A stretch of DNA of 61,751 nt from Dyella sp. C11. Lineage in GTDB: Bacteria > Pseudomonadota > Gammaproteobacteria > Xanthomonadales > Rhodanobacteraceae. Both the position numbers and the translations under genes were made by a program. The notes under the pieces are model-generated. The model was not told where the DNA came from, did no database searches, and worked only from the letters and a program-made list of their open reading frames with translations. Positions 181-59,848 of this stretch are shown here, piece by piece (position 1 is the stretch's first letter; every line of letters begins with the position of its first letter). The stretch is from the NCBI RefSeq assembly GCF_003121485.1, contig NZ_QAVX01000026.1, positions 1 to 61,751 on the forward strand, written 5' to 3'.

Positions 181-245
181 TGTACGTTGACCCAAAGTTT
201 GGCCGCTTTGGCCAAACTATCTGACAATGTCAAAAAGTTTGGCCA
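181..245 (+). repeat. Transposon left end with TnsB-type binding sites
   Basis: The tip TGTACG is followed by AGTTTGGCC at 196-204, an inverted copy (GGCCAAACTAT, 210-220), and AGTTTGGCC at 236-244. The two direct copies are preceded by similar sequence (TTGACCCAA and ATGTCAAAA) and are 40 bp apart. Sequence-specific TnsB sites repeated in the ends are typical of Tn7-family elements. Assignment to TnsAB here is inferred from position and repetition. Confidence 0.75.
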
Positions 246-447
246 TCGGGGCCTGTCGGAGCGGCACCAAGCCCTTTGGGGCGGGCTGGGTCTAAGACTG
301 GGTGCGAGTCGTTCGGGGGGATTGGCGAAAGGGGAGAAGCTGCTTGGCAGCAGGCAGTGGGGTAAACACTTCTGTTGCCCTTCGATTTGCGACGGCTGTT
401 AGACCTGTGACAAGCCTTAATGTCCTAGGACTGAAGCAGTATCTACC
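246..447. other. Gene-free stretch between left end and tniQ
   Basis: About 200 bp without a convincing gene, separating the left-end repeats from the tniQ stop codon. A short plus-strand reading frame crosses the tRNA and the transposon tip and is not considered coding. Confidence 0.6.
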
Positions 448-1827
448 TCATAAATAGCCCGCGTCCCTTCCTCTCTTTAGCATTACTCGGTTGTTTCTTG
501 TCAGTTGAGGACTTTCTGCGAGCACTCTTAGCCGCTCATGGGTCCGCAGCACATCAGAAACTAAAAGCCTTGCCACGTGTTTCTTCACTAGAAAATTGGC
601 ATGCAAGTGGTCGACGAGATCATCTTGACTCCTGAATTTGCCACCTATGTAAGCGAGCATTGCTCCACCTAGCGTTAGCTCAGTCTTAGCTTGGCGCTTC
701 CTCAACTTGTTGGTCTCACGCACCTGGCGTCGAAATTCTTCGACGTAAACTTTGCACAATGCGGGTTGCCGATAGCGAAGGAAACCCTTCGATACGCCAA
801 GGGACTTTGCAAACTCCGGGAACGACACTAGGGGTTTTTCGGGCAATCCAGCGATAGCATTCAGGAGGCTTGTTTTAGCCTCCGTACACACATCTTGGGC
901 TCGTCGTGGCTTATCGCATTTTGGAAGCATTAGTTCGTCAAGAGCTAAGGAGCCGGCGATATGAGCGGCTCCACGAGGGTCTGTAAGAACATCTGCGAGC
1001 TTCACGCCAGCTACATGGCAACGTTTGAGCATTGTCGAAAGCGTTGGGCGATGTTGCTTTGAGCTCCAGGTTCTGATCGCTCCCTTCGTGGAAACGTCGT
1101 TCCGATAGGCCATGGCAGGACCAATGATCGAGACCGACTCTTGGCAGAATAGGCCAAAGGCTCGAGGCACGGATTCGCGCAAAGCGCCGGTCGCTATAGC
1201 CTCTATCAGTCCTCGGCAATCCGTTTCACCGAAAACCGGGCGATCGACTCGTGACCATGTCTTCGGACCTTGAACTAGCGAACTTAGGCATTTGGCGCAC
1301 TTCGTCATGCCAGCAGTCGAATGGTAGGCGAGTTGCTGCGCTCTACAAGCGGGGCATCGGTTCACGAGCGACACCTGGTGCATAACACAGCGCCCAGTAG
1401 GCGCCAATGCCCAGAACAGCCTGTCGTAGTAAGGAGTGCCCTCACGTTCGCTCCAGTACATACAGGCCGGGCACCACGCTCTTCCTCGGCGAAGTGCGCC
1501 ATGGGCGACAGCGTCTGCCGCGTTTCGAATTGGTAAGAGGGTTGTCCTATACAAATCTGGCTGATTAGCGGCGAGAGATACCACCTTGACGTAGTTCTCC
1601 ACAGCCTCACCGTAGCCGCATAGTGGGAGACGATTTGCCTTGTACAGAAATACCTGCTTTAGTTCGACCGCTTCCTTTTGTTCACGTGACCACCATTGCT
1701 CGAGATGGCGCGCCATTGGAATCATGGTTGTAGAGTGAAGTGCCGCAAACCGATAAAAGTAAGAATGAAACTGTTCCACGTCTTCGGTGCCCCATCCAAG
1801 GGGGGCAAGCATGAAATAGTCATTCAT
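448..1827 (-). CDS. tniQ: TniQ/TnsD family target-selection protein
   Basis: A 459-residue TniQ-family protein, the sequence-specific target selector of Tn7-like transposons. The family's zinc-binding region is clear: CPAC at about 119-122, C147 and H150, CPAC at about 158-161 and CAKC at about 177-180. The length and a long C-terminal half rich in basic residues and helix-turn-helix-like segments (for example FAKSLGVSKGFLRYRQ) match TnsD-type rather than short CRISPR-associated TniQ. It is the last gene of the tnsAB-tnsC-tniQ operon. Its start overlaps the tnsC stop by 8 bp, implying translational coupling. The adjacent tRNA-Ile2 gene, whose end lies 23 bp from the transposon tip, is the obvious candidate target. 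That it binds the tRNA gene is inference. Confidence 0.9.
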   Translation of the reverse strand: MNDYFMLAPLGWGTEDVEQFHSYFYRFAALHSTTMIPMARHLEQWWSREQKEAVELKQVFLYKANRLPLCGYGEAVENYVKVVSLAANQPDLYRTTLLPIRNAADAVAHGALRRGRAWCPACMYWSEREGTPYYDRLFWALAPTGRCVMHQVSLVNRCPACRAQQLAYHSTAGMTKCAKCLSSLVQGPKTWSRVDRPVFGETDCRGLIEAIATGALRESVPRAFGLFCQESVSIIGPAMAYRNDVSTKGAIRTWSSKQHRPTLSTMLKRCHVAGVKLADVLTDPRGAAHIAGSLALDELMLPKCDKPRRAQDVCTEAKTSLLNAIAGLPEKPLVSFPEFAKSLGVSKGFLRYRQPALCKVYVEEFRRQVRETNKLRKRQAKTELTLGGAMLAYIGGKFRSQDDLVDHLHANFLVKKHVARLLVSDVLRTHERLRVLAESPQLTRNNRVMLKRGRDAGYL

Positions 1828-6943: not shown

Positions 6944-7441
6944 TCAATGATTTTGATCAGCCGCAATCACTCGCTCGACATCTTGCTTTAGAAGATAGAT
7001 TGAAACGACCAACAAAACGAGGTCTTTCAGCAGGAACGCAGAAACGATTGTCATCGCGGGGAATCCGCCCGCGGCAGCTTCCCATGCACCAGGAGCGAAC
7101 GGCAGGATGGTGAAGGTGGCAATAAAAGTGAAAGTGGCCCCAAGAGCACCCAGTACGCCCAGTTTCTTATTCCAGAATCCGAGAAGCAGCAGCAAACCAA
7201 AGGTCCATTCCGAAGTTCCCAACAGATAGCTAGTGCCACGTACACCCAACACCGGAATCGTCCAGAAAATAAGTGGTCCATGGGTGATAAGCGGAATCAG
7301 TCCTATGATTTCAGCTTCGAACCATTTGTCGTACCCGAACCACGCGAAGATGATGACCATTGATGCGCGAAGTAGGTGGTAGTCGACATCTTTCTTCAAG
7401 AGACCGGTTTTAGCGAAAAGCTGGACGAGCGCGTTCATCAT
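6944..7441 (-). CDS. RclC/YkgB-like DUF417 inner-membrane protein
   Basis: A 165-residue protein of the DUF417/YkgB family, which includes E. coli RclC, a membrane protein of the reactive-chlorine resistance regulon. About four hydrophobic segments are visible (for example near MVIIFAWFGYDKW, LLLLLGFWNKKLGVLGALGA and TIVSAFLLKDLVLLVVSIYLL). The start is set at the ATG at 7441, preceded by GAAGGA, rather than the upstream extension to 7516. It is divergent from the RclR-like regulator at 7618, the same pairing as in the rcl system, so control of this gene by that regulator is likely. Confidence 0.82.
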   Translation of the reverse strand: MMNALVQLFAKTGLLKKDVDYHLLRASMVIIFAWFGYDKWFEAEIIGLIPLITHGPLIFWTIPVLGVRGTSYLLGTSEWTFGLLLLLGFWNKKLGVLGALGATFTFIATFTILPFAPGAWEAAAGGFPAMTIVSAFLLKDLVLLVVSIYLLKQDVERVIAADQNH

Positions 7442-7617
7442 TTTTTTCCTTCGATAGTGAGTCGGGAAGTCGGTTGCCGTACAAATCGGTCTACGACGGC
7501 CATGTGGTGTGTGCATTTGCCGTGTCGTTCGATGTGGTTACTTTACGACCGACGATCGAGATGATTAATATCGAAAAATTCAAATAACATGCTTGAAAGT
7601 TTCAAGCGGAGGTCATT

Positions 7618-8580
7618 GTGTCCCCACCAGGTGATTGGTTGAGCCGATTTCTGGAAATCACCCCTGTGCGCGGGAAGCTTGAAGTGCACTGCCAATACGG
7701 TGCGCCCTGGCGTATCGATCAGGGGGAGGCGGCAGCTGGCGAAATGCCCTACCACATCGTGCTTGATGGCTCGGGTTTGCTCGAGGATCCGGCAGGTGGC
7801 CCGCCGATTCCTTTGGCAGCGGGAGATATCTTGCTTATCGCCAACGGGGATGCGCACGTATTGCACGACGGTAGCGGCAAACGGGCCAAGCCTGCTATGC
7901 GACGAACGGCTGCGAACCTGGTTTTCAGCGAGAACAAAGGACGCGGCGCGCAGCTCGATATGCTATGCGGTCGATTCGTCCTCTCTCCGTCACACGCGCA
8001 GTTGCTGCGCGGTTATTTACCGCCATTCCTCGTGGTGCATGCTGCTGGCGACGTATCGGATGACGCGCGCGAAACTGGAGCCCAACTATGGGGGTTGATG
8101 GCACTGATGCGGGCAGAGAGTGGCATCGATTGCCTTGGCGGTCGCGCCATGCTCAATGCATTGTCCACGGCATTGTTCGCGCTGGTATTGCGCTTTGCCA
8201 GTAAGGCGAGCGAAGCGCCGGCAGGGTTGCTGGCGTTGGCCGGCTATCCGCGACTTGCTCCTGCGTTGGAGAGCCTCTTTCAGGATCCTGGCGCCGCATG
8301 GACACTTCCAGTCCTCGCGCGCAAATGCAACATGTCACGCTCTTCCTTCGTGCGTCTATTTCAGGAAAAGCTAGGCCGATCAGCAAGCGAGCTTTTGACA
8401 GACATCCGCATGACCCTGGCCGCAAATCAATTGCGCGAGTCGTCACTTTCGACCGGTGCTATTGCAGAAAGCGCGGGATATCAGTCAGAGGCAGCTTTCC
8501 AGCGGGCGTTCAAGCTCCACCTGGGAGTAACGCCGGCTCATTGGCGACGGGCTGCGCAGGTTCAAGACAGCGTGCCCTGA
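7618..8580 (+). CDS. RclR-like AraC-family regulator (cupin_6 sensor)
   Basis: A 320-residue AraC/XylS activator. The N-terminal cupin-type sensor (about 5-190) matches the AraC_binding/cupin_6 group that includes E. coli RclR. Two helix-turn-helix motifs fill the last 100 residues (LARKCNMSRSSFVRLFQ and IAESAGYQSEAAFQRAF). Cys25 and Cys117 are candidates for the redox switch by analogy with the hypochlorite-sensing cysteines of RclR. The start is GTG 7618 with AGCGGAGG upstream. It is divergently arranged with the RclC-like gene, indicating local control of an oxidant or electrophile response. Confidence 0.85.
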   Translation: MSPPGDWLSRFLEITPVRGKLEVHCQYGAPWRIDQGEAAAGEMPYHIVLDGSGLLEDPAGGPPIPLAAGDILLIANGDAHVLHDGSGKRAKPAMRRTAANLVFSENKGRGAQLDMLCGRFVLSPSHAQLLRGYLPPFLVVHAAGDVSDDARETGAQLWGLMALMRAESGIDCLGGRAMLNALSTALFALVLRFASKASEAPAGLLALAGYPRLAPALESLFQDPGAAWTLPVLARKCNMSRSSFVRLFQEKLGRSASELLTDIRMTLAANQLRESSLSTGAIAESAGYQSEAAFQRAFKLHLGVTPAHWRRAAQVQDSVP

Positions 8581-8640
8581 ACCCGCTAGCTAAGGGGAGT
8601 GTAGGTCCCCGATCAATTATCCCTTTGGGGATCTTTTGCT

Positions 8641-8676
8641 CATCGCGGAGCGCTGGTAATACAGCGCTCCGCGATG
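8641..8676. terminator. Perfect 15-bp stem-loop between convergent genes
   Basis: CATCGCGGAGCGCTG is followed by a 6-nt loop and its exact complement. It lies between the ends of the AraC gene (8580) and the AhpD-like gene (8680), 4 bp from the latter. It probably terminates both transcripts, although neither side has a proper U-run. Confidence 0.65.
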
Positions 8677-8679
8677 AAG

Positions 8680-9216
8680 TTACTTCACTGCCGGAAAATC
8701 GATCGACGTATCGTTGATGCGGTTGAAGACGTTGGTGAAAACGATCAATGCAATGGCCAAGCTGATATCGACCAGCTGCGCGTCGGTATAACCCGCGCTC
8801 TTGATGGCAGCAAATTCTTCCGCAGAAATGGTGCCGGAAGTCTTTACCAATGTCCGCACGAAATGGACCAGCGCATCACGCTTGGCATCGTCTGTTGACT
8901 GACCCGCACGGATCTTACCCAACGCGTCGGGTTTGAGACCTGCCATCTTGCCGAGCAACGAGTGAGCAGCCACGCAGTAGTCGCAACCGGCCACTTCGCT
9001 GACTGTCAGTTTGATGGTTTCCTGATCTTGTTTGGTCAAAGTACCGGCTGCCAGGACGCCGTCAGCTTGCAGGACTGCTTTGAGGGCAGCGGGATTCAGC
9101 GAGCCAATCGCCCCAAAAGCATTGGGCACACGACCCACTGCTTTTCGAATCTGGTCGAAAACTTCCGCCGTCGCGCCAGTGGCTGTTTCAAGGTCAGGGG
9201 TAAGGATGCGAGACAT
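8680..9216 (-). CDS. AhpD-like carboxymuconolactone decarboxylase family protein
   Basis: A 178-residue AhpD/CMD-fold protein with the redox motif CDYCVAAHSLLG (CxxC followed by His), as in alkylhydroperoxidase D and peroxidase-related proteins. Such proteins reduce organic hydroperoxides or serve as disulfide carriers. The substrate here is unknown. The start is the ATG at 9216 with GGAG upstream, rather than TTG 9228. It lies in the oxidant-response cluster and is convergent with the RclR-like gene, being separated by a perfect hairpin. Confidence 0.82.
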   Translation of the reverse strand: MSRILTPDLETATGATAEVFDQIRKAVGRVPNAFGAIGSLNPAALKAVLQADGVLAAGTLTKQDQETIKLTVSEVAGCDYCVAAHSLLGKMAGLKPDALGKIRAGQSTDDAKRDALVHFVRTLVKTSGTISAEEFAAIKSAGYTDAQLVDISLAIALIVFTNVFNRINDTSIDFPAVK

Positions 9217-10121
9217 GAGTGACTCCAAGAGGATTAAGGTGGAGCCACTTTAGAAGGTGGAAACGATCTCTTTAATGCCGCTTTGTGCGAAATACATGCT
9301 CAAAAGTTTCATCTAGCGAAGTCCATGACGGATCGATCGAAGACGTGGTGGCTGCGTCTCTAGAGTGGAGCGGCTCGCAATCCAGTCCGGCGATGTTTCG
9401 CAGACGTCGCCGCCCGTTCAACGACCTATCTCCCAAGACCCCATGAATGTCCCTGTTTCCGGGGATACATGACTCACTGGCTATGGCGCCCCCCTTGCGA
9501 GTCTTAATGAGAGTGCCTTGATATCGGTGCCACGCATGCTGCCCTACGATTGCCGCGCCGTGCCACCGGAGTAGCCCGTGCTGCCGCCCTAAATCGATGG
9601 GCGGCGAGGACTACAGCTCAGTTAGGCGGTGGAGGGCAACGGCTGCAACACGCCACCCCGAAAGAAGCGAACGCCGACTGCTAGCAAAGCTGCGTCTATG
9701 TATTCGTGACCGCCAGACTAAGGCAGTTGGCCACCCGATCACTTCCTGTCGTATCCACTCGCCAATCACCTAGGTTTGCATTGCCACCCATCCCTGGTGC
9801 TAAGCGACCGCGCGCTACGTCGATGTTGGTACGAGGTGTGGCAGGTCAAGCAGGCATCCCAAGTCCCAGCCGTCTTCGGCCGAATCGTTTCGCTTCCCGA
9901 TCCAGGTAATCAATTTATTAGGGAGGAGGCGATGCCGGTGGGTTGATTGGCAAAGGGGCGCATCCGCTTGCGCGCAGCATAAAGCGAGAGTAACCTCTCT
10001 AAAAGTATTTATGAAGTTACTCAAAGTGACGGCACCTTACTGCAATTGTTTGCAGGAGGTATGGTGCAAGCGAGTCGACGAACGCATGAAAACCTCAATC
10101 GGCAACGAAGAGAGACTAGAA
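9217..10121. other. Long upstream region with an operator copy
   Basis: About 900 bp before the next credible start. I see no convincing gene, as the short frames here lack ribosome sites and family likeness. The only strong signal is the inverted-repeat operator at 9991-10020. A local GGCGAtGTttCGC...GaCGTCGCC near-palindrome occurs at about 9391-9413. Confidence 0.5.
9991..10020. promoter_or_regulatory. Operator copy 1 (TAACC...AGTTAC inverted repeat)
   Basis: TAACCTCTCTAAA then seven spacer bases and TTATGAAGTTAC. It is 25/30 identical to the copy at 22890-22919 and shares arms with four other copies. It lies about 100 bp upstream of the alpha/beta hydrolase start chosen at 10122. A possible start at 10011 would lie inside the repeat and is therefore disfavoured. 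Confidence 0.65.
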
Positions 10122-10814
10122 ATGGCTCAGCTATCCGCTACTGTGGTGTTGGTTCATGGGGCATGGGCTGATGAATCGAGCTGGAAGAAGGTGAGAGATT
10201 GGCTCGACAAAATCTCTGTCAAGACGGTTACTGTCGGGTTGCTCATGGCGTCCCTAAAAGAAGACGTGACAACGCTCGACATGGTGCTGGCGGCGATTGA
10301 TGGACCCGTGATCTTGGTGGGTCACGCTTACGCCGGTGCCGTCATCGCCGAGACGCAGAGCGCGCAGGTGAAGGCGCTCGTTTATATCGCGGGTCTTGCG
10401 CCAGATGAAGGTGAAACCGTGGTGGACGTCTTCAATCGCTTTGGACACGACGACCAAGCGCCGGTACTGGAGCCTGCAAGCGATGGACGCATCTGGTTAT
10501 CGCCGGAGGCATTTGTGACGGCATTTGCGCAATACGCCACGGCAGAAGAACAAAAGGCACTTGCTACAGCTCAGCGACCAATTTCGCCAGCGTGCATTGT
10601 GACGCCTGTTGGTACACCTCTGTGGAAACGCGTCCCGACGTGGTACCTGGTGGCACAGCATGACCACATGATTCCTGAAAAAACACAGCGCTTTATGGCT
10701 GATCGGATAGGGGCACATACGCGTGCCTATCCTGTTGATCACTTGCCAAGTGTGACGGCACCTTCACTGGTGGCCGACATAATTGTTGATGCGCTCAACG
10801 TTAGCGCAGCTTGA
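10122..10814 (+). CDS. Alpha/beta hydrolase, nucleophile Ser replaced by Ala
   Basis: A 230-residue alpha/beta-hydrolase-fold protein. The oxyanion region VLVHGAWADESSW and the nucleophile elbow VGHAYAGAVIAE are clear, but the usual Ser of GxSxG is Ala. I believe this is shared by close relatives, implying a non-hydrolytic or unusual role. A late His (AYPVDHLPSVTAP) is present. The ATG at 10122 begins the conserved domain. Upstream in-frame starts (10086, 10011) lead into the operator and are unlikely. It is the first of three genes (10122-12508) that probably form one transcript controlled by the operator at 9991. Confidence 0.75.
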   Translation: MAQLSATVVLVHGAWADESSWKKVRDWLDKISVKTVTVGLLMASLKEDVTTLDMVLAAIDGPVILVGHAYAGAVIAETQSAQVKALVYIAGLAPDEGETVVDVFNRFGHDDQAPVLEPASDGRIWLSPEAFVTAFAQYATAEEQKALATAQRPISPACIVTPVGTPLWKRVPTWYLVAQHDHMIPEKTQRFMADRIGAHTRAYPVDHLPSVTAPSLVADIIVDALNVSAA

Positions 10815-10851
10815 TGGGTACGCCCTCCAAATTATCGTAAGGGAAATTGCC

Positions 10852-11703
10852 ATGTCTACTATTCACTTCCGTAGCGCTCAGGTCGACGGTGTTGAGGTTT
10901 TCTATCGTGAGGCCGGCACGCCGGGTAAACCGAAGTTGCTTTTGCTCCATGGTTTTCCAAGCTCAAGTCATATGTTCCGAGATCTGATCCCCTTGCTCAG
11001 TAACGACTTTCATATCGTCGCACCTGACCTGCCGGGTTTTGGACGAACAGATATGCCTTCGCGCGATACATTCAAATACACCTTCGATCACCTGGCAGAC
11101 ATCATCGATGGCCTGACAGAGGTGATTGGTTTTGATCGCTACATCGTTTATGTATTCGATTACGGTGCACCGACGGGATTTCGATTGGCCATCCGACATC
11201 CGGAGCGGATCCAGGGGATCGTTACTCAAAACGGAAATGCGTACGTTGAAGGTCTCAGTGATGGCTGGAATCCGATTCGCACGTATTGGGAGAACGCAAC
11301 GGTGGCCAACCGCAACGCGTTGCGTGCTTTGTTAACACCGGAAACGACGCGGTGGCAGTACGTGCACGGCACTACTGACGAGTCATTGGTGTCGCCGGAC
11401 GGCATTGCTCTGGATAACTACTATCTTGCGCGCAAAGGCGCTGACGAGGTGCAGTTGGATTTGTTCCTCGATTACCAAAGCAATGTCGCTCTCTACCCTG
11501 CGTTCCAAGCATATTTTCGCGAACACAAGCCGCGTTTGCTGGCGATTTGGGGTAAGAACGATCCATTCTTTCTTCCACCAGGTGCTGAGGCATTTAAGCG
11601 TGACATCCCCAATGCGCAAGTGACCTTTCTTGATACCGGGCACTTTGCGCTAGAGACTCATGCGTCTGAGATAGCAGATGCGATGCGCTCGTTCTTCAAA
11701 TAA
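10852..11703 (+). CDS. Alpha/beta hydrolase (haloalkane dehalogenase/epoxide hydrolase-like)
   Basis: A 283-residue protein with LLLHGFPSSSHMFRDLIP (oxyanion loop), an aspartate at the nucleophile elbow (VFDYGAPTGF), as in dehalogenases and epoxide hydrolases, a second acidic site near WGKNDPFF and a terminal His in DTGHFALETH. It likely hydrolyses small electrophiles, but the substrate is not predictable. The start is the ATG at 10852 with AAGGGA upstream. It lies 37 bp after the previous gene, in the same operon. Confidence 0.82.
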   Translation: MSTIHFRSAQVDGVEVFYREAGTPGKPKLLLLHGFPSSSHMFRDLIPLLSNDFHIVAPDLPGFGRTDMPSRDTFKYTFDHLADIIDGLTEVIGFDRYIVYVFDYGAPTGFRLAIRHPERIQGIVTQNGNAYVEGLSDGWNPIRTYWENATVANRNALRALLTPETTRWQYVHGTTDESLVSPDGIALDNYYLARKGADEVQLDLFLDYQSNVALYPAFQAYFREHKPRLLAIWGKNDPFFLPPGAEAFKRDIPNAQVTFLDTGHFALETHASEIADAMRSFFK

Positions 11704-11737
11704 CCAGCAGCAACAACCTAGGAAGTAGGGGTGCGCT

Positions 11738-12508
11738 ATGTCTGAAACGACCGCTATTGTAACGGGCGCCAGCCAGGGTATTGGCCAAGCAACTGCGATA
11801 CGCCTCGCGAAAGATTTTGGTGCGCTTGTACTCGTCGCACGAAGTCGGGAGAACTTGCAGCACACGGCGGAGGCGGTTGAAGCTTTGGGTGCAAAGGCAC
11901 TACTCGTCGATTGCGATCTTAGCCAGCCAGCTGCTGCAAAGCTCGTCGTCGAGGCGACTCTGTCCGCCTTTGGTCGCATTGATGCACTGCTTAACATTGC
12001 TGGTGCCGTTCCTCAGGTGGATCTCTTCGAGATGACCGACGAGCAATGGGATGCAGGTATGGCGCTGAAGTTGCACGGTGCCCGTCGCTTGACCTTGGAA
12101 GCGTGGAGTGCGCTGCGAAACGCCAAAGGCGCGGTCGTATTCACTTCGGGTAATTCCGCGGCCATCCCCAAAGCGCCCTATGCAGCGGTAGGTACGATCA
12201 ATGCGGCCATCGTAGCGTTGGCCAAGGCTTTCGCAGATCGCGGTATCGCAGATGGCGTCCAGGTAAACAGTGTATTGCCAGGCCCTGTTATGACGGGACG
12301 CAGGCGTTCTTACCTAGAGCATTGGGCGCCGTCGCACAACATGAACGTTGCGGAAGCGATGGAGCACTTTCCCCGTGAAGCGGGTATTGCGCGTTATGGC
12401 CAGCCCGAGGAAATCGCAGAGCTGATGGCTTTTATGGTGTCGCCAGCAGCCCGTTGGATGACTGGTGCAATGCTTCGCATGGATGGGGGCGAAGTCAAAT
12501 CGTTGTGA
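11738..12508 (+). CDS. Short-chain dehydrogenase/reductase (atypical active site)
   Basis: A 256-residue SDR with the nucleotide-binding TGASQGIG near residue 10 and the NIAG motif near residue 85. The catalytic region reads TSGNSAAIPKAPYAAVGTIN, so the usual YxxxK is changed (Lys position is Gly), suggesting altered or lost classical chemistry. The start at 11738 is a clear ATG with GGAAGTAGGGG upstream. It is third in the hydrolase-hydrolase-SDR operon and ends at 12508. Confidence 0.82.
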   Translation: MSETTAIVTGASQGIGQATAIRLAKDFGALVLVARSRENLQHTAEAVEALGAKALLVDCDLSQPAAAKLVVEATLSAFGRIDALLNIAGAVPQVDLFEMTDEQWDAGMALKLHGARRLTLEAWSALRNAKGAVVFTSGNSAAIPKAPYAAVGTINAAIVALAKAFADRGIADGVQVNSVLPGPVMTGRRRSYLEHWAPSHNMNVAEAMEHFPREAGIARYGQPEEIAELMAFMVSPAARWMTGAMLRMDGGEVKSL

Positions 12509-12704
12509 CAGTGCGACGTTGCGGCCGTGGTCTTGTGGGCCATTGGCATGGGTGTGGCAAGGAGCGCGCAGTGATGAAACGATTTCGGCTAATACAGTGG
12601 ACGATGTAAGGACTCGGCTGGACTAAAAAGTTCGCTGAGGGTGATGTCATCCAGTGATGGGATGAATGCAGTCAACTACCGACGGTAAGGCATCTGCCAA
12701 GTAC

Positions 12705-14435
12705 CTAAAGGTCGAGTTCGACGTCACCCCGGGGTCGCGAGCAACAAATCAGAACGTCGCCTCCACCTGGGGCATCAAGGGGGACTGGTTCGTAGTCGAC
12801 TTGACCATCAATGAGGGGTGTAACGCAGTAGTGGCAAACACCCGTGCGGCAACTCCAACGCACGGGTACGTCGCAGGCTTCCGCTAGCGCTAGCAAAGAT
12901 GGAAATCGGGCATCCCAGTGAACGGATAAACGACTGCGCGCAAATGTAACGCTCGGCCCGACCGTTGCGGCCTCGATAGGCGGGTGCGGGGAGCGCACAG
13001 TACGTTGTGTGACGCCAGGTTCAACGGGCGCATCGGCAACAAAATTTTCCATGTAGATGTCGCCCCACTCCACACCACTCTTCAGAAGCTCGGCTTTGAG
13101 TCCTTCCATGAAAGCGCTCGGTCCACACAGATAAAAGGTGCTCTCTAGTGGTACACCAAGGGCGAATAGCCCCGCCGCGGTGATACGCCCCTCCACGTCA
13201 TAGCGGCGCTGCAGGCGATCATCATCGGTAGGCCGACTCAAGAACGTCAAAGCGCGAACTTTTGATCTGTCCTTCAAAAGGCGTGATATCTCGTCCGCAA
13301 AGGCGTAATGGGTTCCATCGTGAGCACCGTGGACCCACCACAAGCGCGAATCTGCTTCGTCAAGTTCCGATACAACGGTTTGCGCAAGCATTCCCAGCAA
13401 CGGCGTGATTCCGATGCCAGCACTAATTAGGACTATGGGTTTCACGGTTGGATGGAGGAAAAAATTGCCCCGCGGCGCACTGACCTCAAGGGTATCGCCT
13501 ACTTTGAGGCTATCGTGCAAGTAAGCACTCACACCACCCTCGATTCGCTTTACACCGATGCGGTAAATGCCCGCATTGTCATCGCATAGTGAATAGCTAC
13601 GGATCTGACGTGAATCCGTTGCTGAGCGTGCCACGCGTATGGCTACATATTGTCCGCCGCGATGAGGTGGCAACGGCTCGTCATTTGGGTCCGCGAGACT
13701 AAATGCACACACGTCATCGGACATCTTCACTCGGGCTACCACCCTCAATCGGCGGAAACCAGGCCAAGCAATTTCGGGTTGGGAGGGTGCCGCGGAAGCG
13801 GTAAGCAAATCTTCGAAAGATTTTCGCCACCCCACGCTGAGCGCTGGCAAATTAGCCGCGCGGCGAAGATCTTCCTTGCTGCGGTTCCCCTTGTATAGCA
13901 ACGAATCTATGTCGGCGACACTCATCGCATCACTCGCGCGACTGATGCGCTCAATCCGATCCCCAGCACCAACTTCCCCAGTCTCCAGCACGCGCATATA
14001 AAACCCTGGCCGGCGGTGCGCAACCATCAGTGATGGTAATTCGGGATGCTTCATACGGAAGCCCACCTTGTAACACGTGACGCGTGGCTGAGTGACCTCA
14101 AATAGAGCTGAGCCGATTCGGTATCGATCACCTATACACACATCCTCATCGGAAAGCTCCGTTACGGTGAAATTCTCTCCAAATTGCCCAGGCTCTAGTC
14201 CCTCGCGCTCCAATACTTTCGCCCAATAGCGAAGGGATTCCTCCTGATACACGAGGATCGCGCGATGTTCGCCACCATGACCAACAAGGTCGCCTTGTTC
14301 ATCACCTGCCAGGTTGAGTTTTGTCATGGTTACGCGACCGGCAACCGGCGCTTTCCAAATAGCTGTCCGAACCACCTTGTCTTGCCAGGTGATGTCCTTG
14401 GCCCTGCCCACGTTGATCGACAGTAAGACAGCCAT
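12705..14435 (-). CDS. MOSC domain-ferredoxin reductase-[2Fe-2S] ferredoxin fusion
   Basis: A 576-residue three-part protein. An N-terminal YiiM-like MOSC domain (about 1-210) has GHGGEHRAI and a conserved Cys in QPRVTCYKVGF. The middle is an FNR-type FAD/NAD reductase (RSYSLC, GGVSAYLHD, GIGITPLLGML). The end is a plant-type [2Fe-2S] ferredoxin with CRTGVCHYC and a distal CC. It should pass NAD(P)H electrons through FAD and iron-sulfur to a MOSC-bound acceptor, as in YiiM/YcbX-type detoxification of N-hydroxylated compounds. The start is the ATG at 14435, with AGGAAGGA upstream. It follows egtD by 47 bp on the same strand, so it is probably the third gene of the egtB operon. Confidence 0.87.
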   Translation of the reverse strand: MAVLLSINVGRAKDITWQDKVVRTAIWKAPVAGRVTMTKLNLAGDEQGDLVGHGGEHRAILVYQEESLRYWAKVLEREGLEPGQFGENFTVTELSDEDVCIGDRYRIGSALFEVTQPRVTCYKVGFRMKHPELPSLMVAHRRPGFYMRVLETGEVGAGDRIERISRASDAMSVADIDSLLYKGNRSKEDLRRAANLPALSVGWRKSFEDLLTASAAPSQPEIAWPGFRRLRVVARVKMSDDVCAFSLADPNDEPLPPHRGGQYVAIRVARSATDSRQIRSYSLCDDNAGIYRIGVKRIEGGVSAYLHDSLKVGDTLEVSAPRGNFFLHPTVKPIVLISAGIGITPLLGMLAQTVVSELDEADSRLWWVHGAHDGTHYAFADEISRLLKDRSKVRALTFLSRPTDDDRLQRRYDVEGRITAAGLFALGVPLESTFYLCGPSAFMEGLKAELLKSGVEWGDIYMENFVADAPVEPGVTQRTVRSPHPPIEAATVGPSVTFARSRLSVHWDARFPSLLALAEACDVPVRWSCRTGVCHYCVTPLIDGQVDYEPVPLDAPGGGDVLICCSRPRGDVELDL

Positions 14436-14482
14436 CGTTATCGATCCTTCCTCATCTTCCCCAATCGCTTGAGAAAGTGTTC

Positions 14483-43897: not shown

Positions 43898-43906
43898 GAG
43901 CGAGCT

Positions 43907-44965: not shown

Positions 44966-45283
44966 AAACCGGTGCGCTATTGCCAAAAAGGGGCGCAGAG
45001 CACACACCAGTTGTGCTTGTCTGAAGCGGTCTAACCGAATCACTGTTCGGCAACTAAACCATGGTTCAAAAGTTCGAAGAAAACAGGCGGTACGCCTCCC
45101 TGTGGTTTAGATAGACTTCGCGATGCCCTTACTAAGGGCTATTCGTCGAAACCAATGGGTCGAGTAAGTCGACTACGGCGGAATACGAAACCAAATCATC
45201 GCGGCGCATGCTCGTTTCAGGGCCTGGCATTGCGCTGGTGTCGGGCCTCTACCTTCGTATCAAGAAGCTTGAGGAGACCCGCC
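44966..45283. other. Control region of the hydratase operon
   Basis: 318 bp without a gene. It holds the palindrome copy at 45054 and a half-site TGGTTTAG at 45103, followed by TAGACTT. Confidence 0.5.
45054..45069. promoter_or_regulatory. Near-palindrome matching the 40804 operator
   Basis: CTAAACCATGGTTCAA, 14/16 identical to the perfect palindrome at 40804-40819. It lies 215 bp upstream of the hydratase start. Confidence 0.55.
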
Positions 45284-46123: not shown

Positions 46124-46156
46124 GGTCTGTGGCTTAAGCGAGTCCGGAGATTCGCC

Positions 46157-46780
46157 ATGTCTAAGTCGATCTATCCGGTTGGGCGTACCGCTTACCTTCT
46201 TGTCGATCCGTACAACGACTTCCTTTCGGACGGCGGGAGGGTCTTCCCGTTCATCAAGGCAATCGCCGATGCAGTGGGATTGCTGGAGAACCTGCGCAAA
46301 CTGGATGTCGCAGTGCGAAAGCGCGGTTTGGACGTTTTCTTCGTTCCTCATAGGCGTTGGGAGCCTGGCGACTATGAGGGCTGGGATCATCCAAATCCCA
46401 ATCAAGTGAAAGTGTCACAGCGCCACCACTTCGCACGCGGTGAATGGGGTGGCGAATGGCACCCCGACTTCACACCGAAGCCCGGAGACACCATTGTCCG
46501 CGAGCATTGGGGTTCCAGCGGCTTTGCAAATACGGACCTCGACTTTCGCTTGAAGCAAAGAGGCATAACGCATGTGATCGCGGCTGGTCTATTGGCTAAT
46601 ACATGCATTGAATGCACAGCGAGGTACGCGAGCGAGATGGGCTACCACGTCACTTTGGTGCGCGACGCGACCGCGGCTTTCAAGCCCGAAATGATGCATG
46701 CAGCCCACGAGTTGAACGGTCCTACATTCGCGCATGCCATCCTGACGACGGACGAGCTAATCCAGAGGCTGGCTTCGTGA
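46157..46780 (+). CDS. Isochorismatase-like cysteine hydrolase
   Basis: A 207-residue isochorismatase-fold hydrolase. The catalytic Asp is in LLVDPYNDF, a Lys lies near RHHFARGEWGG or KPGDTI, and Cys is in LLANTCIECTARYA. These enzymes cleave amides or isochorismate-type substrates. The actual substrate is not predictable. It lies 33 bp after the hydratase gene. Confidence 0.87.
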   Translation: MSKSIYPVGRTAYLLVDPYNDFLSDGGRVFPFIKAIADAVGLLENLRKLDVAVRKRGLDVFFVPHRRWEPGDYEGWDHPNPNQVKVSQRHHFARGEWGGEWHPDFTPKPGDTIVREHWGSSGFANTDLDFRLKQRGITHVIAAGLLANTCIECTARYASEMGYHVTLVRDATAAFKPEMMHAAHELNGPTFAHAILTTDELIQRLAS

Positions 46781-46792
46781 GCGTGCAATGCC

Positions 46793-47662
46793 ATGACACG
46801 ACAGATCTACATTCTCGATCAACATCTGGGTGCCGTTCTCTCCATTCGGGAGGACGGAAGTGGCCTCACCGTATTAGTTGATCGTTGTCCTCATCCGGAT
46901 GGGATCGTTGTGGACGGAAGCGCCGGCCACTTGTACTGGACCAACATGGGGCCAACGTTTGACGAGCCTTGTGGCTCCATTGAGCGCGCGAGATTGGACG
47001 GCAGTGAGCGCACGATGATTCTCGCAGAAGGTTTGACGCATACACCCAAGCAACTCCGCCTGGATGCGGCTGAGCGAAAAATCTATTGGTGTGACCGCGA
47101 AGGCATGCGCGTGATGAGAGCCAATATGGATGGAACCGAGATCGAAACATTGGTGATCACCGGGGACCCAGAGGCCAATCGGGGTGATGCGACAAGGTGG
47201 TGCGTCGGGATCGCGCTCGATCTCGTGCGTCGACAGGTCTATTGGACGCAGAAGGGGCCTCCGGGCGGCGGTCTCGGTCGCATCTCTCGTACATCCATGG
47301 ATCGCCCCAATGAATCGGATGCAGAGCATCAAATCGAGATCCTCATTGAAAACCTTCCAGAGCCAGTCGATCTGGAGCTGAGTGAAAAGGGCGACAGCTT
47401 GTGCTGGACTGATCGCTCCCAAGGATCAGGTGGCGGAAGCCTCAATCGGGTTCGGGTCGACCCGGCCAGCGGGGCAATTGGTATGCCACAGCTAGTCGTG
47501 GCGGAAATGGATGAGCCGATTGGTCTGGCTTTGAACGCGGATGAAGACCGGATGTTCGTGGCCGATCTTGGCGGCAGTGTCCACGTTGGCGATATCGAGC
47601 GTGGGCAATGGAACCGCCTGCTATCCAACGCCGGAAGGTTCACCGGGATCTGTGTGTTGTAA
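46793..47662 (+). CDS. YWTD-type beta-propeller protein
   Basis: A 289-residue protein made of repeated blades with LYWTN, IYWCD, VYWTQ and CWTD motifs, the LDL-receptor YWTD propeller pattern (also SMP-30-like). No signal peptide is visible, so it is probably cytoplasmic. It lies 12 bp after the isochorismatase-like gene and ends the operon. Lactonase-like or binding roles are possible. Confidence 0.82.
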   Translation: MTRQIYILDQHLGAVLSIREDGSGLTVLVDRCPHPDGIVVDGSAGHLYWTNMGPTFDEPCGSIERARLDGSERTMILAEGLTHTPKQLRLDAAERKIYWCDREGMRVMRANMDGTEIETLVITGDPEANRGDATRWCVGIALDLVRRQVYWTQKGPPGGGLGRISRTSMDRPNESDAEHQIEILIENLPEPVDLELSEKGDSLCWTDRSQGSGGGSLNRVRVDPASGAIGMPQLVVAEMDEPIGLALNADEDRMFVADLGGSVHVGDIERGQWNRLLSNAGRFTGICVL

Positions 47663-48072
47663 CAACTGAATCGCTTGCCGGTGTCGCGGTAGAACGCACA
47701 CCGAAGCACGCCCAAGCTCAAACACTTGACCAGAACTTAGCGCGATCTACGTGGCCAGGAATGACGGCAGCCTCTGTTGGCAGGAAAGGCTGGCACGACT
47801 CTGACCAAGAATCGTAAGCGGGTATTTATGTAGAACTATTGCAGCGATAGTCAGCAAGTAGATCATCGCTTTTATGAGATCTTAAATGTTTCTCCAAGCT
47901 TCCGAAGGGGCATGAACGACCAAGACAAGCTCAACGCTCATCGACATCGGTGAAGGGGCGCCTCATCGACTTCGAATGACTCATGTGACGGCGCGAGATC
48001 CGAAGTACACCTCCAATGCTTTGTTCATCGGGTTCTTCCGTAAGACGCTAGAAGCAGTCGGCCGGATCGAAG
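47663..48072. other. Gene-free stretch
   Basis: 410 bp between the propeller gene and the ICMT-like gene. No credible gene. No clear terminator by eye. Confidence 0.5.
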
Positions 48073-48798
48073 CTATACGATGCGCGGGAAAAGAAACCCC
48101 GTGCTTCGCTTATAACTTGAATAGGCGTCGCCATAAATCGAGAGAAGGACTGTCTCTTCACGAGTGGCCGCCCAGAGAAAGGCGACGACTATTAGAGGCC
48201 AGCTCGCTAGACTCACGACTGTGGGCCAGTGAATGAGCCATCCGGTAATGAATAGCAAAAAGCCGAGATACTGAGGGTGCCGGACGAAACGATAGGGGCC
48301 GGTGGCAGCCAGTCCGCCGCCGGCTGCATAAAGCTGGCACCAGGACCAGGCAATCAGGACTAGCCCACTGAACGCTGTTCCCATTCCGAGTGTCAACGGC
48401 CAGTGTCCGAAGCGCTGGAAGTAGACGTCGCCAAGAAGTGGCATTGAGACCCAGCGCGACAGTACGTACATAACTAACGGCACGCCGAACATTTCGGTAA
48501 GCAAAGATGACATAAAGGCAACGACTAGGCCGGCTTCGACCCAGCCCTGGTGGCGATCGCGCCGAAATAGTAGTGCGCTGCTGATCGCAAATACTGCAGC
48601 AATATTCAACCAAAGAAGAGCGTGGGGCCCGAGCCAATCGTTAAGGAACCGCTCCTGTCGTGTGGGCCAGTCGTGCCTGGGATCGAGCTCCTGGAAATTC
48701 AACATGATAGAGAGGAGCGCTCCCATAATAATCAGGAGACTACACAGCCGATATCTTGAGGTATAAGTCCGACGCCTAGATTTGTCCCGGCGCATCAC
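48073..48798 (-). CDS. Isoprenylcysteine carboxyl methyltransferase-like membrane protein
   Basis: A 241-residue integral membrane protein with about six hydrophobic segments. The C-terminal half matches the ICMT/PEMT-type SAM-binding region: TGPYRFVRHPQYLGFLLFI and then REETVLLSIYGDAYSSYKR. It methylates a small acid or lipid, or is related to NnrU. The acceptor is unknown. It is divergent from the NHL/peroxidase operon. Confidence 0.82.
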   Translation of the reverse strand: MMRRDKSRRRTYTSRYRLCSLLIIMGALLSIMLNFQELDPRHDWPTRQERFLNDWLGPHALLWLNIAAVFAISSALLFRRDRHQGWVEAGLVVAFMSSLLTEMFGVPLVMYVLSRWVSMPLLGDVYFQRFGHWPLTLGMGTAFSGLVLIAWSWCQLYAAGGGLAATGPYRFVRHPQYLGFLLFITGWLIHWPTVVSLASWPLIVVAFLWAATREETVLLSIYGDAYSSYKRSTGFLFPRIV

Positions 48799-48906
48799 CT
48801 CCCCCTTTTAGCTAGGTTGCACCCGCAAAGGATGGGCGCCAACATAATATTAGTAAACGCTCAGTGCGAAGTCCTGGCAAGACAAAAACGCAAAAGGGGA
48901 TGGCCG

Positions 48907-50952
48907 ATGTGGCGGATCCGTACCTCGCTAGGCGTAATCGCGGTTGCGATGTCTTTCCTTTGTCGGGCTGGTCAACTTCCGATACCCCCCGATGAGCTCA
49001 AGTATCCCAACGTCGTAAAGTCGACGCTGGAATATAAATCTTGGGGTTTGGGGCCACAGGATCTGAATGATCCTTTCACTTGCCGTCACATGCCCGATGG
49101 GCGTTTGCTCATTTCCGATTTCGAAAATCATCAGCTGAAGATATTCGACTTCACAAGTAGTCGCCTATCTAACGTCTCACTTCGCACATCGAAGGGCGTG
49201 CCGATGACTGGCCTGCTTCCATTTGCAGCATTGATGACTAGTGATAACCATGTGCTGCTTGTGGATCGTAGTGAGGGCAGTCTGCTTGAATTTGGCAGCG
49301 ACGGTCGGCTGCTGCGTCAATTCGGCGCCAATGATCCGTCCCAACGTCTTTTCGAAGGTGGAAAAATTGCTCTGAACGGTGATCGCGTGGCCGTCGCAGA
49401 TGAAGGACACAATCGTGTCCTAGTTTATGCGCGAAATGGCAAGCTGCTAGTCAGTCTGGGTTCGTACGGCCAGCATGATGGGGAGTTTAATGGGCCACAG
49501 AGCGTCGCCTTTACAAGGAACGGCGATTTGCTTGTGCTGGACACTTACAACAATCGCGTCCAAGTGTTCGGTCCTGACTATCAGCATCGCGCTACATGGG
49601 GTAGATGGGGCTCCTTCAAGGGGTTCATGGCGAATCCTAGCGACATATATGTCGACCAAAACGACGATGTCTATGTGACTGACCTGCTCAATCACCGGGT
49701 TCAGGTATTTAGGCCTGACGGTACGTTCAAATTGCAGTTTGGCCGGCATCCACCTACGTCTCATGAGGGAAACGGGCGGATTCACTATCCAACTAGTGTA
49801 TCGGTCAGTGACAGGGATCAAAGCATTGTGACCTGCGAACCCTTTGAGAGCCGCTTGCAACGGTTCTCGTTAGGAAGCGTCAGCCAAGTAAAGAATGTAA
49901 ATGACTCAGCATGGTGGGAAAAGGGTGCCCGGTTCCATTACGGATCCAAAGCGACCGCGGCCGGCTCAATGCTCGCAATATCTGAACCCGATACGCATGC
50001 GATTCTTTTCTTTCATCTAGATGGTACGACGCCGATCTTGACGGAGATCATCGGGGGCGAAGGTAGCAATCCTGGCCAATTTGTTCGTCCTGCCGGACTT
50101 GCAGTGGACGCCGTTGGTCTGCGCTTGTTGGTGAGCGATTCAGGAAATCACCGTATTCAGGAATTCAAAATCGATGCCGATGGGATTAGCCAGTCGCTAG
50201 CGTTGTCGAAGAGCAAGAACGGTCTAGCCACCGCAGATCTCTCAGCGACTTTCAATAGTGCGCCGGCGGCTCCACATAGTCTCAGGTTTGTAGCGAGTCA
50301 CGAGATTCGCTTTGCCACCACATCTACGTCTAAATCATTGCAGACTCGAGACGAACCACAACAGACATCGAACGCAGCGCTGGAGCCTAGCGCTATAAAA
50401 GTTGGCCCAGATAATCTGATCTATGTAGCTGATCCAGAGGCGGGACGTGTCCTGGTGCTATCAAATGACTATCAGCTACTGAGAGTCATACAAGGGACAA
50501 AGAAGACGGGTGCTATGAGCAATCCCCTTGATTTCTCGTTCTCGCGCGACGGCCATTTCATCTTCGTGGTCGACCATTACAACTACCGAGTCCTCAAGTT
50601 TACGGTCGAAGGCGCATTTGTGGCGCAGATTGGTGGGCCTGGACCCCAGCCAGGGCGCTTCGTGCTTCCTTTCGGTATCCAATCTGGCCAGGATGGCTTT
50701 GTCTACGTATCTGATGTTGGCGGCCAGAGGATCGTCAAATTCACCGAGGACGGTCATTTTGTTAAGCAGTGGGGACGTTGGGGGACCGCGCCTGGCGAGT
50801 TCTACAAACCTAAAGGCCTTGCTCAGCTCGCCGATAACACCTTGGTTGTAGTGGACTTCGGCAATCATCGGGCTCAAATGTTCGATCCAGAAGGGCGATT
50901 CTTGCGTACTTTTGGAATCGAAAATGCTGTAACAAGTGCAGTCCGGCCATGA
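48907..50952 (+). CDS. Exported NHL-repeat beta-propeller protein
   Basis: A 681-residue protein. A signal peptide follows the ATG at 48907 (RTSLGVIAVAMSFLCRAG). At least ten NHL blades follow, with recurring patterns such as VADEGHNRVLVYARNG, VLDTYNNRVQVFG, VTDLLNHRVQVF, VSDSGNHRIQEF and VVDHYNYRVLKF. It likely forms one or two periplasmic propellers, serving as a scaffold or enzyme. The stop overlaps the start of the next gene (ATGA). Confidence 0.88.
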   Translation: MWRIRTSLGVIAVAMSFLCRAGQLPIPPDELKYPNVVKSTLEYKSWGLGPQDLNDPFTCRHMPDGRLLISDFENHQLKIFDFTSSRLSNVSLRTSKGVPMTGLLPFAALMTSDNHVLLVDRSEGSLLEFGSDGRLLRQFGANDPSQRLFEGGKIALNGDRVAVADEGHNRVLVYARNGKLLVSLGSYGQHDGEFNGPQSVAFTRNGDLLVLDTYNNRVQVFGPDYQHRATWGRWGSFKGFMANPSDIYVDQNDDVYVTDLLNHRVQVFRPDGTFKLQFGRHPPTSHEGNGRIHYPTSVSVSDRDQSIVTCEPFESRLQRFSLGSVSQVKNVNDSAWWEKGARFHYGSKATAAGSMLAISEPDTHAILFFHLDGTTPILTEIIGGEGSNPGQFVRPAGLAVDAVGLRLLVSDSGNHRIQEFKIDADGISQSLALSKSKNGLATADLSATFNSAPAAPHSLRFVASHEIRFATTSTSKSLQTRDEPQQTSNAALEPSAIKVGPDNLIYVADPEAGRVLVLSNDYQLLRVIQGTKKTGAMSNPLDFSFSRDGHFIFVVDHYNYRVLKFTVEGAFVAQIGGPGPQPGRFVLPFGIQSGQDGFVYVSDVGGQRIVKFTEDGHFVKQWGRWGTAPGEFYKPKGLAQLADNTLVVVDFGNHRAQMFDPEGRFLRTFGIENAVTSAVRP

Positions 50953-51323
50953 TTAGGTTCGCACTGGCACTAGGTGCTGCAAGCGTACTCGGTGCACCAG
51001 CGGCAGCCAACGTGACTTCAAGTAATGGTCGCTGGGAAGCTTCCATGGATCGCGTCGCGATTGGTGTGGGAGAGCATGCGGCCTTAATACTGAGTATCCG
51101 TGGTGTTCACACAGACGGATGCCCGAAGCTTGATGGCGTAATTTTGGAAATGCCGCAACATGGTCACGGGACGGACTATAAGCCGCAATTCGTGTCAAGC
51201 GGACTGTGTAAGTGGCGACTGAGTAATGTGACACCTACTATGCGTGGTGTTTGGCGCCTCCGTCTGGTCCTCAAATACGGGGACGAAACTAGCGTTGCGG
51301 ATTACGAAGTTGTGGCGCAATGA
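50949..51323 (+). CDS. Small exported protein, YtkA/FixH-like
   Basis: A 124-residue protein with a signal peptide (RFALALGAASVLGAPAAA) and an immunoglobulin-like beta domain (VGEHAALILSIRG, GCPKLDGVILEMPQHGHG, GVWRLRLVLKYGD). The HGHG in a PQHGHG setting resembles YtkA/FixH-type proteins linked to copper or cytochromes. It overlaps the NHL gene before it and the peroxidase gene after it by 4 bp each. Confidence 0.7.
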   Translation: MIRFALALGAASVLGAPAAANVTSSNGRWEASMDRVAIGVGEHAALILSIRGVHTDGCPKLDGVILEMPQHGHGTDYKPQFVSSGLCKWRLSNVTPTMRGVWRLRLVLKYGDETSVADYEVVAQ

Positions 51324-52456
51324 GCGTTCGCCATCTCGTTCGAGAACTCTCAGGTGTCATACTTCTCTTTGTTTCAACTGCAGCCGTCTCAGGTGGAGAT
51401 CCTAGTGTCGCGAACCTACTTGAGGCGCTTGGACTCACATCCAGGCCCCCACTGGATGGGACAGCGTTTAGGATGCAGGGACCATTTTTCGACAAAAATC
51501 TTTCGGCAGACGGCGCTCATAGTTGCGCGAGTTGCCACATGCCTAGCCAGGCCTGGTCGAGTGATCAGCTTTCAGTGGGAAAGCTGACTCGGGCAGTTCC
51601 ATCTTTGTATGGGGCTGCCGACAAGCAATATTTCTTTTGGGATGGCCGTGCGGCCTCTTTAGAGGCGCAAGTAATGGAGGTGCTAGAGAATCCTGCGGAA
51701 ATGAACAGCTCCCGATTGCTCGTTGCGCGGTATGCGTTGGACAACGGGCGCCCTATAGCATCGTGCCGTCCAACGACACACGGCCTGGCCGATGAGCTAA
51801 CTTCCCTTGCGCCTTCGCAGCTAACAGCTTCTGAATCACGCAGGTTGTATTTGGGCCTTGATTTGGAGAGTCGCAGTGAGGTTGATAAGAGTTTCGCCTG
51901 CGTCGCTCATCTGATTGCCGACTATGTTCGGTCCATTCCCATTCCGCGCACGGTATGGACGAGCGCCCCAAAGCGCAAAAATGATATAGACCCCAGTGTT
52001 TGGCGCGGCGCGGTGGTCTTTGCTGGCAAAGGGCGCTGCGCCACTTGTCACTACGGACAAAGCTTTTCGGACGGCCAATTTCACAATATCGGAATCGCAA
52101 ACGTTAACGAAGTAGATATATCCGATCCGGGTAGGTTTTCCGCGGTGCAATCTATGCGACAAAACGAATACAACTTGCTGGCCAAAACGTATTACCCAAG
52201 TCGAGTAGCAGAAACGGAATTCAATGTCTCAGAAGAGATGTGGGGAGCCTTTAAAACACCATCTTTGATAGGGCTTAGTAAGCGCCACAAATTTATGCAC
52301 AACGGTCGCTTTGGTAGCATTGGCGAAGTGGTTGACTACTATGACACACTGAAGTTAGCTGTTGTTCCAACTCATCACTATGTAGGTCTCCTAAGTCCTT
52401 TGAATTTATCTCAAGAAGAACGGGCAGATCTAATTGCTTTCCTAAACTCACTCTGA
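51320..52456 (+). CDS. Di-haem cytochrome c peroxidase/MauG-family protein
   Basis: A 378-residue exported di-haem protein. A signal peptide is followed by CxxCH motifs CASCH near residue 70 and CATCH near residue 240. The family stretches PSLYGAADKQYFFWDGRA and FKTPSLIGLSKRHKFMHNGRF are present. It reduces peroxide, or like MauG/MbnH oxidises a partner protein. It is tightly coupled to the small exported protein before it, which may be that partner. Confidence 0.9.
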   Translation: MSVRHLVRELSGVILLFVSTAAVSGGDPSVANLLEALGLTSRPPLDGTAFRMQGPFFDKNLSADGAHSCASCHMPSQAWSSDQLSVGKLTRAVPSLYGAADKQYFFWDGRAASLEAQVMEVLENPAEMNSSRLLVARYALDNGRPIASCRPTTHGLADELTSLAPSQLTASESRRLYLGLDLESRSEVDKSFACVAHLIADYVRSIPIPRTVWTSAPKRKNDIDPSVWRGAVVFAGKGRCATCHYGQSFSDGQFHNIGIANVNEVDISDPGRFSAVQSMRQNEYNLLAKTYYPSRVAETEFNVSEEMWGAFKTPSLIGLSKRHKFMHNGRFGSIGEVVDYYDTLKLAVVPTHHYVGLLSPLNLSQEERADLIAFLNSL

Positions 52457-59500: not shown

Positions 59501-59654
59501 GGATGTCTTGGCGGTCGCGCTTGTTAGAAGCTTTGTTGTGCGGCGGTTCTACATGTTTCCCGATGCTGCTGAGCTTAAGCGCGAGGTTTGCTCCGCGCTC
59601 AACATCTCGCGTCGGCCTTTCCAAGTGAAGAGCCTCGAGACGGGTAGAAAGTAG
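56565..59654 (+). CDS. Metallophosphoesterase-STAND-type NTPase fusion
   Basis: A 1029-residue protein. The N-terminal calcineurin-like phosphoesterase has all five motifs: SDIH (D10, H12), GD (49), GNHD (88-91), H201 in LLHQPLNW and GHEH (229-232). A P-loop NTPase follows (TITGDEQYGKTTLAKRW near 385-401, RVVIIDDFDDL near 456-466), then a helical C-terminal half of about 500 residues. This effector-NTPase-sensor layout is like STAND immune proteins, in which the phosphoesterase would be switched on after target recognition. It lies directly after the Septu pair, at the transposon tip. The start has only a weak ribosome site. Confidence 0.8.
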   Translation: MATLIIFLSDIHIAAASDQILAHHKEIVDASFSDYSDGVTDCHLIITGDIAQSGKKQEYELAKVFIENICTHVVNRVGKRPGIVLCPGNHDCDFSSDQAVRTMIIDNMDYRAEVKLGLSDALAEPLKAYFEFVDDVASPVHGPGRWTSDYRFSGDICINYTALNVALTSGLPERQGKLLFSLAADAGPSAAESALSIYLLHQPLNWLAADCAREVGDLISTRADIALFGHEHRDRGFVVAGLYDESKVINFNADVLHDRKGKLPSAFRTVLIQKGGKIKSSRYVWQAPSYLKDEAKSDGAWRDCLNQESRRSVLSFKKDFVAWIDDIGATYAHRRKERLTLSDIFVWPNLRIKTRDKSAQSLLIDAEELNASKFFDVVAPYGVVTITGDEQYGKTTLAKRWLAKLKSIGFFPIYITCSDIKSLKGPYIDQRIKEIVKAQYACISSDAFDQLESRQRVVIIDDFDDLTFNSEGKAELLKLLKEHFGTVILLVSNTPGVELWLENILSEAKFSKQSSFELLQMNFQARMQLIEKWLHIGNEYSQEKEDIESTATRLGRLVSDALGRNLVPSVPLFVLIILQRAESESELETVIKNGSHGFLYEALITRAIGEKVPSFTVDTAQTYLTSYAKKIYSAGLDGLSLHDAESFHRDHCDFFEISYSFERTKAELCNAGIWREKSGVIVFAYPYLYFYFVARFLANLASPAQRMGVVESLIATIHTETSANILLFLAHLGRDEEVLDRLLGHAATVMGDAVPFDAYAAVSIFQEFQEGKVREIYYETSREQALKIAHDADCESDPVVMVSSGAISTVRDVQEYATEINRSFRTLQVLGQILRNHAGSIEKSKKREIALACTNLGLRTLGSMLTLFKDVAPEIIQSRVESIISTEKDKLLWRQKVDEQLKSMSGILSELVTNVAVGTFVRIAGAIGSEELAPTLEHILYADDNRTKKIVGLSVKLEHFATFPRDEVMNFVPKKSTVKDVLAVALVRSFVVRRFYMFPDAAELKREVCSALNISRRPFQVKSLETGRK

Positions 59655-59848
59655 TCTTCTAGATACCCGCGAATGATGCTCGGCAAGTGATGTGGGAAAG
59701 CCTGCCGTAGCTGCCACCCGCCGAGCACGCCGTGGGTAGGGGCCGCTCTCGCGGAAAATCATCGGCAGGTTCAATGAATTGCGTCGTTTCTGCTTGCGGT
59801 GGCCAAACTATGCGAGACGGGAGCGGCCAAACTATGTGAGATCGCGCA
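59655..59848. other. Transposon right-end region
   Basis: 194 bp after the last cargo gene. Two GGCCAAACTAT sites (59801-59811 and 59825-59835, 24 bp apart) precede the right tip at 59848. No gene. Confidence 0.75.

Follow-up and report, generated by a model that had tools for sequence, protein, structure and literature searches.

A complete and probably functional Tn7-like transposon with a fused TnsAB transposase behind a CAT-anticodon tRNA gene of Dyella sp. C11

We analyzed a stretch of 61,751 nucleotides from Dyella sp. C11 (NZ_QAVX01000026.1), called the window below, in which an element of 59,668 bp lies behind a tRNA gene (Table 1). A preliminary description of this DNA had placed both boundaries of the element, and its details were borne out base for base: TTCGC stands on both sides, the tips run TG...CA (TGTACG... 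at the left, ...CGCGCA at the right), the 12-mer AGTTTGGCCGCT is found at both ends, inverted and 15 nt in from the tip, and the two tips agree at 20 of 27 terminal positions. The termini depart from the TGT/ACA pair, with TGT at the left tip and GCA (TGC) at the right one. Because the available part of a review names CASTs with non-TGT ends (PMC11406308), we regard TGT/ACA as typical rather than defining. Judged from the list of open reading frames, a content of about 50 genes is plausible. The element had also been called large for its class, which holds against the element medians of 14-29 kb in the accessible text of Benler and colleagues but not against their longest element of 140 kb (PMC8649781), and a relative in genome G019 of the same genus reaches 58.2 kb.

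Table 1. Features of the window and related elements with exact target duplications
Feature	Position	Strand	Basis
CAT-anticodon tRNA gene, target	82..157	+	ARAGORN
18-bp spacer, tRNA CCA end to duplication	158..175	+	sequence read
Left copy of 5-bp target duplication TTCGC	176..180	.	sequence read
Left end: tip TGTACGTTGACCCAA and three AGTTTGGCC sites	181..244	+	motif positions, relatives
Left-end AGTTTGGCC sites	196-204, 210-218, 236-244	+, -, +	motif count
TniQ/TnsD target selector, 459 aa	448..1827	-	PF06527 above cutoff; 8v32/9bw1 TnsD match
TnsC-type AAA ATPase, 359 aa	1820..2899	-	PF13401 above cutoff; role from position and homologues
TnsAB fusion transposase, 832 aa	2839..5337	-	PF08722 above cutoff; rve below cutoff; 9bw1 match
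Cargo: AraC regulator, hydrolases, EgtD/EgtB, OsmC-like, OYE, kinase-histidine kinase, MauG, NHL, others	6944..52456	.	family scans
Defence-like cargo: PDC-S11, PtuA, PtuB (Septu type), DS-8-type anti-phage protein	53013..59654	+	family scans
Right end: two direct AGTTTGGCC sites and tip TGCGCGATCTCACAT	59801..59848	-	motif positions, relatives
Right-end AGTTTGGCC sites	59825-59833, 59801-59809	both -	motif count
Right copy of target duplication TTCGC	59849..59853	.	sequence read
Element of D. acidisoli (G107), 24,351 bp, exact duplication CCTCA			both ends located
Element of G019 (same genus), 58,194 bp, exact duplication CTTGC			both ends located
Element of G229, 9,308 bp, exact duplication TCCTT	L130, about 2173-11480		both ends located
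Element of G116, 3,362 bp, exact duplication TTTTT	L148, 3771-7132		both ends located

The three transposition genes all read toward the tRNA-side tip. The TnsA-type endonuclease and the DDE-type TnsB expected of a Tn7-like element are joined in one protein, in which PF08722 scored 30.5 bits (cutoff 26.5) and rve scored 28 bits, under its cutoff of 32.6. A profile of 18 TnsAB sequences matched 9bw1 in the PDB (E 1.8e-88). Residues D471, D542 and E578, which we infer to be the DDE triad, are invariant in all 18 rows of this alignment, and K144, the ExK lysine of the TnsA domain, is lysine in 13 rows and arginine in 5. A TnsC-type ATPase, recognised by a generic AAA domain of Pfam, and a TniQ/TnsD protein adjoin the tnsB portion. 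As a single sequence, the ATPase had no match in the PDB; TniQ matched TnsD of 8v32/9bw1 (E 4.2e-17) over residues 7-365. We take these two PDB entries to be PmcCAST. This assignment fits the abstract of PMC12585508, a source that describes the TnsABCD transpososome of the type I-B CAST of Peltigera membranacea cyanobiont 210A.

Both ends of the element carry arrays of putative TnsB-type sites. The motif AGTTTGGCC occurs six times in the window, compared with 100 shuffles that averaged 0.44 copies and all had fewer than six. Five of the six copies lie at most 64 bp from a tip, and the sixth is isolated at 49736 inside the element. The first two left-end sites stand head to head and form the palindrome AGTTTGGCC-GCTTT-GGCCAAACT with a 5-bp centre, the third site lying beyond it, while the two right-end sites are direct and 24 nt apart. 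The ends are asymmetric, as in Tn7-like elements, with three sites at the left versus two at the right. Relatives keep the left-end palindrome with the site variants AAAGTGGCC or AAGTTGGCC. We call the tRNA-side tip the left end because the convention given in the review text at hand reserves the name right end for the side upstream of the transposition genes (PMC11406308). According to the same text, overlapping sites tend to occur nearest the attachment site and layouts vary widely. No description of a palindromic or inverted pair of TnsB sites at a Tn7-like end was found in the accessible portions of the literature, and the novelty of the palindromic tRNA-side end is unproven.

The cargo was characterized by scanning 50 frames, a few of them outside the tips, for protein families. 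The ergothioneine genes for EgtD and EgtB, both above their NCBIfam cutoffs, lie at 14483-16728, and the other cargo includes two OsmC-like proteins, a relative of old yellow enzyme, a cytochrome P460, a MauG-type protein, an NHL protein and a large kinase-histidine kinase. A defence-like cluster, in which the DS-8-type protein scored above its cutoff, adjoins the right tip, and DUF4238-Pers lies further inside the element. A single mobile unit of 60 kb holds the ergothioneine genes together with several defence-like genes. At 25453-26316, a 287-aa fragment of a HyoA-like NACHT protein matched the first 172 of the 1430 positions of an anti-phage model and is probably a broken gene. Such damage to part of the cargo, together with the divergence of the left tip from the right one, would suit a genuine Tn7-like transposon that has lost its mobility. 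We consider this loss unlikely, given that the three tns genes are open, that the transposase match runs without an internal stop and that the ATPase and zinc-binding motifs are visible by eye in the translations.

We then considered the target of the element. ARAGORN calls the tRNA a Met tRNA from its CAT anticodon; by resemblance, we presume that it is more likely tRNA-Ile2. The left tip is 23 nt downstream of the CCA of this gene. In relatives, the left tips are found 22-26 nt downstream of the same CAT tRNA or of its 3' half, so that the insertion at a fixed distance behind a tRNA gene that marks the subfamily is found in the window and in its relatives alike. At 13 of 41 tRNA 3' ends, a near-perfect palindrome (at least 8 of 9 arm positions) starts 34-43 nt beyond the CCA, versus 6 of 656 control bins further downstream, the 41 ends being a biased set of loci from the tRNA search and loci fetched for their elements. 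The selector probably reads the 3' half of the tRNA gene, because in D. acidisoli, G004 and G117 the sequence in front of the left end matches the 3' half perfectly (38/38) but is unrelated to the 5' half (10-18 of 38 positions). A second Dyella left end (L089), where the 3' half is matched at only 23 of 38 positions, counts against this target.

The position behind a tRNA gene would also suit a genomic island that a tyrosine integrase moves and in which the tns genes are passengers, and other islands do seem to share this tRNA, as copies of its 3' half lie downstream of it in several genomes. However, none of the 50 frames scanned belongs to an integrase family, the window holds no second tRNA 3' half (the next best stretch has 15 mismatches of 38), and the boundaries are TnsB-type ends. 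We rejected this explanation, which is hardly credible for the element. As a separate observation, the 3' half of this tRNA is present in a further copy, kilobases away, in G004, G018, G010 and G057 (L090 and L091 are among these loci); the copies were probably left by integrase-type islands that share the site.

The preliminary description had suggested a search for the two tips in other genomes. Among 233 genomes of the family, 25 (the Dyella sp. C11 genome included) contain the right-tip 24-mer TGCGCGATCTCACATAGTTTGGCC with up to 3 mismatches, and none contains the same letters reversed; at some loci (L101, L122 and L124-L126, for example) the match is to a left end whose tip is similar. 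The search thus recovered relatives with matching tips and matching tRNA spacing, and because they carry these tips, the tips of our element are fixed independently of the window. An exact 5-bp duplication flanks five of the seven elements or tip pairs with both ends located, the window included. In the remaining two, the tip pair on a G147 contig has GCTAC/GCTGC, alike at 4 of 5 bases, and the flanks of the G149 element differ (ATCAA/TCAAC). Tips, duplication, spacing, gene order and recurrence can all be read directly from the DNA.

Insertion leaves the tRNA whole, so the same point stays available to later elements, which can stack up there. In G019, a second left end (TGCCTGATCCATCAA, then AGTTTGTCC) comes immediately after the duplication CTTGC, and in G013, G106 and G229 a left-end palindrome lies at most 70 nt outside a right tip. 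At the level of sequence, these stacks show repeated insertion at one point. They also make it conceivable that the two ends in the window come from two Tn7-like elements stacked at the same tRNA, whose inner ends were lost. We judge such a composite very improbable, as the same 5-mer stands at both tips, a coincidence with a chance of about 1 in 1,000 for tips fixed by homology, and as the lone inner AGTTTGGCC copy is not accompanied by any further tip-like pair of sites inside the element.

Two of the relatives are small. The G116 element encodes a TniQ fragment of 87 aa (56% identity) along with MrcB_N and DUF4365 proteins, and we read it as a deletion derivative because this fragment is retained. 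In the G229 element, tblastn with the three Tns proteins of the window found no match at E 0.1; its scanned frames encode a peptidase-ABC exporter, an HlyD protein and an IS66 transposase, and the G229 genome (87% complete) has only a short and distant TnsAB match. This element may have been moved in trans, or it may have lost its own tns genes. Right ends stay nearly letter for letter the same even where the identity of TnsAB to that of the window is as low as 41-57%. Together with the exact duplication around the G229 element, which lacks a recognised tns gene, this similarity could point to a network of shared ends, with one tRNA dock, one palindromic tRNA-side end and transposase-less cargo carriers moved in trans by any resident TnsAB element. 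We regard such a network as doubtful, since G116 keeps its TniQ fragment and G229 may likewise be a deletion derivative.

The preliminary description had predicted that relatives without the element would read tRNA, 18 bp, TTCGC and GCTGGGCC. No such site was found: the joined flanks gave no match across the joint, by the criterion set, in any of the 150 fetched loci, which included no same-species genome lacking the element. Two matches, in L041 and L042, extended 5 bases past the joint. The right flank is island debris: 60344-61751 holds a truncated amidase gene and then the start of a transposase, IS30-like by its HTH domains, that runs off the contig. The best relative of the amidase is found in G015, some 6.4 kb downstream of the same tRNA, in a stretch that also looks island-like and proves little about the empty site. 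On the left, positions 1-81 are degraded Illumina sequence up to the tRNA, matching the P5 oligo at 26 of 29 positions and the Nextera read-1 adapter at 29 of 33; this stretch at the start of the contig is an assembly artefact. TGTCACTTTTGACACTTTTCGCTGG stands at 59875-59899, a short way beyond the right tip, and is found, among 20 genomes of the genus, only in this genome and G003. A similar stretch adjoins the tips in G116, and the sequence is possibly the end of another mobile element.

The proposal of a complete Tn7-like transposon is supported by the fused TnsAB, the TnsC-type ATPase and TniQ, as well as by the two tips with their 5-bp duplication and the site behind a tRNA gene. From its sequence, we consider it very likely that the element is complete, probably functional, a member of the TnsAB-fusion subfamily and homing to the tRNA. 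If the element is active, as its homologies suggest, the proteins can be given the following tentative roles. TnsAB would bind the AGTTTGGCC sites at both ends and excise the element, with the TnsA domain cutting at the 5' ends and the DDE TnsB domain at the 3' ends. TniQ/TnsD would recognise the 3' half of the CAT tRNA gene and recruit the TnsC-type ATPase, which in turn would direct insertion 23 bp past the tRNA with the left end tRNA-proximal. Joining with a 5-bp stagger would then leave TTCGC on both sides.

Among known systems, Tn7 shares with this element the functions of TnsA, TnsB, TnsC and TnsD, a protein-guided insertion beside a conserved gene and arrays of TnsB sites at both ends. 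Unlike Tn7, the element has TnsA fused to TnsB and targets a tRNA gene instead of glmS, and its target-side end, named by the convention in the review text at hand (PMC11406308), lies downstream of the tns genes and carries an inverted pair of sites. Another close counterpart is the D. acidisoli element (NZ_BSOB01000018.1), with TnsAB 57%, TnsC 59% and TniQ 61% identical to those of the window, the same tips, a CCTCA duplication of its own and the same distance from the tRNA 3' half; this element is shorter (24.4 kb) and lies behind a tRNA 3' half only. A literature search for Tn7-like elements in Dyella found none. Benler and colleagues, in the accessible text, describe the region downstream of tRNAs as a safe insertion site (PMC8649781).

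The combination of a fused TnsAB with a tRNA-homing TnsD is common to our element, the type I-B2 CAST (PmcCAST, Tn7744) and the type I-D CASTs. According to the available part of the review, type I-D and I-B2 CASTs arose within a set of Tn7-like elements in which TnsA is fused to TnsB and TnsD uses different tRNA genes (PMC11406308). In contrast to these CASTs, the frames scanned in the window include no cas family and no second small TniQ, and the window has no CRISPR-like repeats. We rejected a CAST on the grounds that no cas family was found in the 50 larger frames scanned, and no exact 18-mer repeat at a spacing of 45-100 nt. The element also differs from them in using a CAT tRNA, inserting 23 nt past it and residing in a proteobacterium; CyCAST homes 30-33 nt past a tRNA-Leu, as stated in the part of the source at hand (PMC10293859). 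Overall, the element is a CRISPR-less, tRNA-homing Tn7-like transposon with a TnsAB fusion and belongs to a described subfamily. Its less expected features are the palindromic pair of TnsB-type sites at the tRNA-side end, the stacked insertions and the 9.3-kb relative without a recognised tns gene. It is related to the tRNA-homing module of type I-B2 and I-D CASTs but is CRISPR-less, looks intact and is exactly bounded. Natural replicates already map its target, spacing and end sequence, and the recognition of the tRNA by TnsD and the orientation of the ends become directly testable.
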